Source: Ancylobacter sp. SL191 (GTDB taxonomy: Bacteria; Pseudomonadota; Alphaproteobacteria; Rhizobiales; Xanthobacteraceae). From it: 64,000 nt of DNA. The notes under the pieces were generated by a model, which had not been told where the DNA came from, ran no database searches, and saw only the letters and a program-made list of their open reading frames with translations. Below, piece after piece: positions 39,901 through 40,131 of this stretch (within the stretch, counting starts at the first letter, position 1; each line of letters starts with the position of its first letter). The DNA lies in assembly GCF_026625645.1 (NCBI RefSeq), contig NZ_CP113056.1:4439001-4503000 (forward strand), written 5' to 3'. The position numbers were made by a program, and so were the translations under genes.

Positions 39901-40131
39901 TCAGAAGTCCATGCCGCCCATGCCACCGCCGCCCGCCCAAGTCGGCTGTTGCCGACTTGGGGTTCGCGTCAGGAAGCCGGGCGGCTTTATCGACGTCCTC
40001 AGAAGTCCATGCCGCCCATGCCACCGCCGCCCGCCCAAGTCGGCTGTTGCCGACTTGGGGTTCGCGTCAGGAAGCCGGGCGGCTTTATGGACGTCCTCAG
40101 AAGTCCATGCCGCCCATGCCACCGCCGCCCG
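39901..40131 (-). repeat. Tandem 98-base duplication of the groEL 3' end
   Basis: Two full 98-base units (39901-39998 and 39999-40096, one mismatch) precede the true groEL end on the plus-strand map. Each unit begins with 35 bases identical to the groEL 3' terminus at 40097-40131, including the stop codon, and continues with a 63-base core that is found nowhere in the normal gene. The core holds a perfect hairpin CCCAAGTCGGC-TGTT-GCCGACTTGGG (39936-39961 and 40034-40059). The unit length is not a multiple of three, and each unit carries its own stop. Confidence 0.95.

Follow-up and report, generated by a model that had tools for sequence, protein, structure and literature searches.

Why should the end of a groEL gene, stop codon included, recur in the non-coding DNA directly behind it? 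In the window (the whole stretch of 64,000 nucleotides of Ancylobacter sp. SL191 analysed here), positions 39901-40131 are composed of three 35-nt copies of the groEL tail placed around two 63-nt cores. The initial annotation had proposed two possible origins of this arrangement: an element that inserts at a gene end and regenerates that end, or two rounds of tandem duplication. From comparisons of sequences, the repeat looks like an old feature, which has been repeatedly gained and lost, and not like a one-off duplication.

Organization of the array behind groEL1

The tail of groEL1 recurs in two exact copies at a spacing of 98 nt, and each core (40034-40096 and 39936-39998) is located, on the coding strand, upstream of one additional tail copy (Table 1). 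The cores differ at a single position (40089 vs. 39991), the two units being 97/98 identical; apart from this base, the tail, its stop codon and the hairpin-bearing 63-base core are exactly as first described. Read on the coding strand, each unit contains the following parts: (i) an inverted tail copy, T- (GGACGTC(C/G)AT-AAA-GCCGCCC); (ii) a 17-nt linker; (iii) a perfect 11-bp hairpin (CCCAAGTCGGC-4-GCCGACTTGGG); and (iv) the 35-nt tail repeated exactly and in direct orientation, stop codon included. The TRF score of the array is 455 (75 for the runner-up in the window), and the array folded together with the terminator gives z = -7.1, a value equalled by none of 200 shuffles. The native terminator does lie beyond the array, as had been noted: its hairpin (approximately 39838-39866) was read from the sequence and the computed fold, and was not among the matches of a strict consensus terminator scan. 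Elsewhere in the window, a REP-like hairpin with a repeated flanking AAGTCGTGGATGGCC (19667-19849) and two perfect hairpins located side by side (26914-26967) were observed.

Table 1. Features of the array behind groEL1 (positions in the window).
Feature	Position	Strand	Basis
groEL1 coding sequence, 546 aa	40097..41737	minus	gene call
T+1, coding tail, 35 nt including the stop codon	40097..40131	minus	sequence
T- of unit 1, GGACGTCCAT-AAA-GCCGCCC, imperfect inverted tail copy	40077..40096	minus	sequence, computed pairing
Linker of unit 1, 17 nt	40060..40076	minus	sequence
Hairpin of unit 1, perfect stem of 11 bp, loop of 4 nt	40034..40059	minus	sequence, hairpin scan
T+2, exact direct 35-nt tail copy including the stop codon	39999..40033	minus	sequence
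T- of unit 2, GGACGTCGAT-AAA-GCCGCCC, single-base difference from unit 1 at 39991	39979..39998	minus	sequence
Linker of unit 2	39962..39978	minus	sequence
Hairpin of unit 2, sequence identical to that of unit 1	39936..39961	minus	sequence
T+3, second additional direct tail copy with stop codon	39901..39935	minus	sequence
Native 3' flank and terminator hairpin, adjoining groEL directly in sister genome G015	39838..39900	minus	flank alignment, fold

Distribution of the unit in the genome, the genus and the order

The genome is assembled as one contig of 4.65 Mb, in which the array sequence matches just one other site, the 3' end of a second groEL gene. The layout there is the same, but its two cores hold other hairpins. 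Hairpins flanked by direct repeats were sought in 464 kb of this genome, made up of the window and 20 sampled stretches of 20 kb each. The scan yielded only both groEL 3' ends and copies of REP-like palindromes, the latter at two places, near 19.7 kb of the window and in locus L236. At L236 (7843-8323), about 2 kb from the 3' end of the second groEL, REP-like palindromes alternate (ATGGCCGGGC.., ATCCCCGGGC..) in a tandem array with a period of approximately 161.

Exact 18-nt matches to the tail number 81 in the 30 genus genomes, and all of them fall at groEL 3' ends (positions compared by eye with the places of groEL). The groEL1 copy, i.e., the one most like that of the window, is followed by one to three units in 18 of the 28 genus genomes of the tree. 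The comparison of sister strains suggested in the initial annotation gave a graded picture: the closest sister (G015), whose groEL1 DNA shows 26 differences of 1638 from that of this genome, carries no unit and has a clean junction of the tail with the same native flank; the next genome out (G014) carries one diverged unit, and this genome carries two. The simplest history read from these sequences would be a single ancestral unit that was lost in G015 and doubled in this genome. Of the two origins first proposed, the gene-end element is borne out in the location of the repeat, at the end of a gene, and in the copy of this end that every unit contains. Tandem duplication looks right for the last step (97/98 identity), but not as the duplication of something local, since the unit seems older than the species, judging by the diverged unit of G014, its absence from the sister G015 and the related units found across the order.

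For the wider search, a covariance model (R1) was built from 44 units, groEL tail included. Among 297 Hyphomicrobiales genomes, 88 match at E<=1e-3 and 50 at E<=1e-6, the latter bearing 15 family labels (counted by hand from the table for the 50). In all 50 of these genomes the match lies at a groEL 3' end, and a tail copy accompanies it in 48 (not in G081 and G280, at the threshold used). R1 contains the groEL tail; it therefore favours groEL and would overlook a unit linked to a different gene with a different tail. Specificity for groEL is based on the search of this genome, the 464-kb scan, 663 kb around groEL genes and the matches listed in one DNA search of the 30 genus genomes. At the class level, 15 of 289 genomes match. 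Newcomers at E<=1e-6 are G467, at L273, and G497, at L274; the latter locus lacks a tail copy, and L273 is the one locus among the 14 class-level loci opened that has it. At the phylum level, 23 of 299 genomes match, and those at E<=1e-6 all lie within the order. Absences in these searches are soft, because stricter filters, which lose weak matches, were applied above 40 genomes; likewise, the scan of contigs for groEL loci covered the best 80 of 591 loci and is not a survey. Among the 83 loci opened from R1 matches (30, 14 and 39, at least two of them duplicating other loci), 53 have a tail copy when up to 4 mismatches per 18 nt are allowed. Most of the remaining 30 match weakly, to tail plus terminator, but L299, L310, L311 and L274, with E below 1e-6, are also among them.

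A test that does not use the model gave a concordant result. In 140 groEL loci (663 kb, some loci duplicating each other), 236 perfect hairpins of at least 9 bp were found, of which 63, spread over 46 loci, lie between direct repeats within 400 nt past the groEL stop codon. Only three further repeat-flanked hairpins occur in the 663 kb, each being the tail/T- hairpin at the stop codon itself; none was found away from the groEL end in these 140 loci.

The unit has a common anatomy: T+1 (ATGGGCGGCATGGACTTC, stop codon) is followed by T- (GAAGTCCAT, often AAA, GCCGCCCAT), a short linker (often CACTAAAGTG), a hairpin whose sequence varies, and T+2 (GGCGGCATGGACTTC, stop codon), with 0 to 3 units in tandem per locus. 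In most loci read, the unit is located upstream of the terminator. In genus g27 (L114, L303, L305, L306, L315, L323 and L324) and in L302, T+1 and T- are separated by a terminator-like hairpin; there the native terminator-like hairpin is duplicated along with the tail, which places a terminator inside the unit. Two further variants were seen. In loci L294, L297 and L307 the groEL stop codon and T- are separated by one more palindrome, unrelated and about 45 nt long, as if palindromes accumulate at this place, and loci L298, L304 and L308 (f28) keep the tail-copy layout with cores of other wording, e.g., GCGACGGC..GCCGTCGC.

Agreement of the unit with its local gene

Tail copies were counted in 250 distinct flanks (nine duplicate loci and identical flanks were removed; this and all other counts given here are uncorrected for kinship). 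A copy is present in 95 of them (one copy in 66, two in 24 and three in 5), a proportion that is no frequency, as the loci were enriched for model matches; the search of 297 genomes provides the less biased figure. Two of the 95 positives (L076 and L127) look like chance. The other 155 flanks have no copy, which indicates that the unit is dispensable. After removal of one flank under 60 nt, 249 distinct flanks served to examine the threshold. With at most one mismatch in 15 nt, 88 flanks are positive, against 0.0 in shuffled sequences and 0 with a control piece from further up the gene. With at most three, the counts are 95, 1.3 and 16, respectively, so the looser threshold can admit related codons.

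The copies follow the gene beside which they lie. Among the 76 first copies with a stop codon, TGA genes are accompanied by TGA in 59 cases and by TAA in 2, TAA genes by TAA in 13 and by TAG in 1, and the one TAG gene by TAG (TGA vs. the rest, Fisher 5e-14, kinship ignored); the remaining 19 of the 95 first copies lack a stop codon and were excluded from this count. The TAA and TAG cases bear at least seven family labels. First copies show 81 mismatches in 1710 positions to their own tails, compared with a mean of 190 and a lowest value of 148 when tails were exchanged between loci 10,000 times. Even tails of unusual wording are tracked by the copy: GGCGACATGGACTTCTGA (L273), GGCGACATGGGCTTCTGA (L295), GGCGATATGGGCTTCTAA (L309) and GGCATGGACATGATGTGA (L046). 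The inverted copy T- tracks the gene loosely. Its near 9 nt fit the local gene better in 10 of 12 odd tails and worse in 2, while its far 9 nt show no net gain (22 vs. 22 mismatches). The stop codon sits unpaired in a loop, where pairing cannot keep it in step, and copying is therefore the better explanation of its agreement.

The stem of the core hairpin is kept by compensatory change as well. Changes on both sides occur at 11 of 11 pairs in 44 units, and again at 11 of 11 in 30 hand-chosen units (alignment A2, partly the same as the 44), with 97.9% of cells paired. In the same 30 units, pairing amounts to 93-97% in the T+1/T- helices, where 3 of 18 pairs have both-side changes, and a mini-hairpin in the linker is weak (66% paired). 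The mispairs of 94 hairpins comprise 14 G.U and 6 A.C, as against 85 and 5 in 212 terminators (83 behind arrays and 129 from loci without units; p=0.0045). Selection on RNA should strongly favour G.U, as the terminators show; the weaker bias of the hairpins, resting on small counts, argues for upkeep at the level of DNA, e.g., by template switching.

Units at different groEL genes of one genome also resemble each other. In 12 genomes with units at two groEL loci, the likeness within genomes is 0.575 vs. 0.387 across genomes, a value reached in one of 5000 permutations. The genome's own paralog is the best match in six of them (G008, G011, G014, G023, G026 and G035), and ranks 2, 2, 2, 6, 7 and 11 in the other six. 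No likeness of paralogs was seen in G016, G019 and G001 (for G001 the second locus, picked by hand, was a third, unit-bearing groEL). These comparisons suggest that shared tail homology may let units pass between the groEL paralogs of one genome.

Origin of the unit and comparison with known systems

The explanation that we consider probable is that members of the Hyphomicrobiales inherit, at groEL 3' ends, a palindromic cassette. Its gain and loss would come about through recombination between tail copies, and copying between its repeats would keep it matched to the gene. Changes in the number of units would arise when direct tail copies mispair by slippage or recombine with each other, either of which a hairpin placed between such copies would promote. 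The arms would be kept alike, and like the gene, by template switching between the inverted repeats and by conversion between the direct ones. Where it lies upstream of the terminator, as in most loci read, a unit would be transcribed into a stack of hairpins with the stop codon in the first loop, and its likeliest use would be the protection or tuning of the groEL mRNA 3' end.

It is possible, and we propose this more tentatively, that the unit is in addition mobile: an enzyme-free cassette of about 77-98 nt, consisting of a hairpin unit that uses the tail of the host gene as its mobility handle and is rewritten to each host tail. On this reading, because the tail is present in both orientations, ordinary recombination and template switching would suffice for insertion, clean excision, multiplication and transfer of the unit between groEL paralogs, with the gene left intact.

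An account that dispenses with copying seems to us unlikely. It supposes a functional RNA switch in the groEL 3' UTR, in which T- would pair either with T+1 (stop codon in the loop) or with T+2 (hairpin enclosed); ribosomes on the groEL tail would decide between the folds and so set mRNA stability or read-out, and the parts would be kept by selection. The predicted folds could accommodate such a switch. Both are strong in the 27 loci computed (e.g., for L243, -53.5 kcal/mol when T+2 is blocked and -48.0 kcal/mol when T+1 is), the alternative T-/T+2 pairing is likewise kept in the 30 chosen units, and both whole structures are 91-92% paired in these units, far above slid controls, though the structure was read from one such unit, which favours it. 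The occurrence of the unit across the order is also in keeping with a function. Pairing, however, leaves the tracked but unpaired stop codon unexplained, many genomes have no unit, and the mispairs of the hairpin are less strand-biased than those of the terminators. Moreover, the terminator-like hairpin between T+1 and T- in the g27 loci and L302 means that the remainder of the unit would lie mostly outside the mRNA there. Given the weak strand bias and the interposed terminators, recombination and copying are preferred, with a role of the RNA being possible. In a comparison with Rfam, no family reached its gathering score at any unit examined. Sub-threshold matches occur in or near unit-bearing groEL flanks, e.g., to BjrC68 with 22.9-25.5 bits vs. 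39 (L002, L252 and L255). BjrC68 was considered as a groEL 3' sRNA and set aside, its matches being sub-threshold only, with none at E<=0.1 in four Bradyrhizobium loci.

We find it improbable that the unit was left behind, as a scar or a minimal remnant, by an integrative element that used the groEL 3' end as its attachment site and brought along its own copy of the gene end. The direct tail copies with stop codon do resemble the gene-end duplication left at an att site, they are often about 18 nt long, as is the overlap of a staphylococcal att site with the end of groEL (excerpts of PMC8125051), and the junction in G015 is clean. The direct copy nevertheless tracks synonymous and stop-codon changes of the local gene, the 81 exact tail copies of the genus include none at a distance from groEL, and a scar leaves the order-wide linker, T- and hairpin unexplained. 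A larger island in the genus likewise seems unlikely, as no distant exact tail copy occurs in the 30 genomes.

Still less probable is a dispersed palindrome of the REP/BIME or REPIN type that landed at groEL and was then duplicated together with its neighbour. The geometry of the hairpin is REP-like, and a DNA search of the 30 genus genomes revealed, among the matches listed, the hairpin motif alone dispersed in several other Ancylobacter genomes (G010, G008, G024, G007 and others) as two-hairpin elements with a similar stem. The initial annotation had named the occurrence of the core at random sites as telling against a tail-regenerating element; no such occurrence was seen in this genome, and only the hairpin motif is scattered in some relatives. 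The dispersed hairpins (L203-L222, in G010, G008, G027, G024, G007, G004 and G022) come mostly in pairs about 11 nt apart, with stems of about 10-12 bp and mostly 4-nt loops; by eye, the pairs often lie within the arms of other, larger palindromes. Direct repeats of at least 12 nt are missing from 17 of these 20 loci, and in the remaining three (L209, L218 and L219) none brackets the element in the manner of a gene tail. The exact stem pattern is restricted to groEL in G019, G023, G001, G011 and G016, and the Y1/RAYT transposase (PF01797) was detected in 0 of 30 genus genomes vs. 5 of 14 control genomes. For this genome, in which the array occurs only at the two groEL ends, a dispersed REP/REPIN origin was rejected, also in view of the lack of RAYT in the genus genomes. 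The motif shared by the groEL hairpin and the dispersed Ancylobacter hairpins could reflect either kinship or convergence. Finally, the 97/98 identity of the two units might point to a simple tandem duplication of local sequence or to an artefact of assembly. Either is hardly credible, because this layout recurs, with different cores, in the assemblies of many other species and this genome is a single 4.65-Mb contig.

The match between a coding tail, stop codon included, and the adjacent non-coding DNA across a bacterial order would constitute a natural record of very short-range template switching and conversion, at a gene that is among the most conserved. Points that become testable with it are (i) the gain and loss of hairpins with flanking direct repeats, (ii) the use of gene tails as transposase-free handles, and (iii) the tuning of the groEL mRNA 3' end by a hairpin stack. 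A description of the unit was not found in the open PubMed Central literature, judged by titles and the starts of abstracts; as this covers open papers only, it is no proof of novelty.

Several known systems share parts of this anatomy. According to excerpts of two reports, REP, BIME and REPIN sequences are small palindromes located mostly downstream of genes, plausibly transcribed and sometimes in tandem, some of which supply stop codons (PMC3733652, PMC3116915); in the GTAG and CGTC classes of REP, the palindrome bears at one end the unpaired tetranucleotide tag that names the class (excerpts of PMC3733652). The groEL unit is likewise a small palindrome downstream of a gene, plausibly transcribed and sometimes tandem, but groEL 3' ends are the only places where it was seen; it also contains the host tail in direct and in inverted copy, and it is found in a genus whose searched genomes yielded no RAYT. 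It shares its place with the staphylococcal chromosomal island SeCISE48, which integrates at the groEL 3' end with an att site overlapping the last 18 bp of the gene (excerpts of PMC8125051). In contrast to this island with its genes, the unit is shorter than 150 nt, forms tandem arrays and has a tail copy that tracks the local gene. With structured RNAs of Rfam it has in common conserved, covarying stems, and it differs from them in reaching no gathering score. Template switching reportedly gives rise to hairpins and maintains them (excerpts of PMC8794818), and hairpins so maintained, or corrected as quasipalindromes, are described as having perfect stems, double substitutions and homogenised arms (excerpts of PMC8794818 and PMC8604942). 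The groEL unit presents all three of these features, and differs in that its matched set also takes in a coding tail, the stop codon of that tail and a direct copy.
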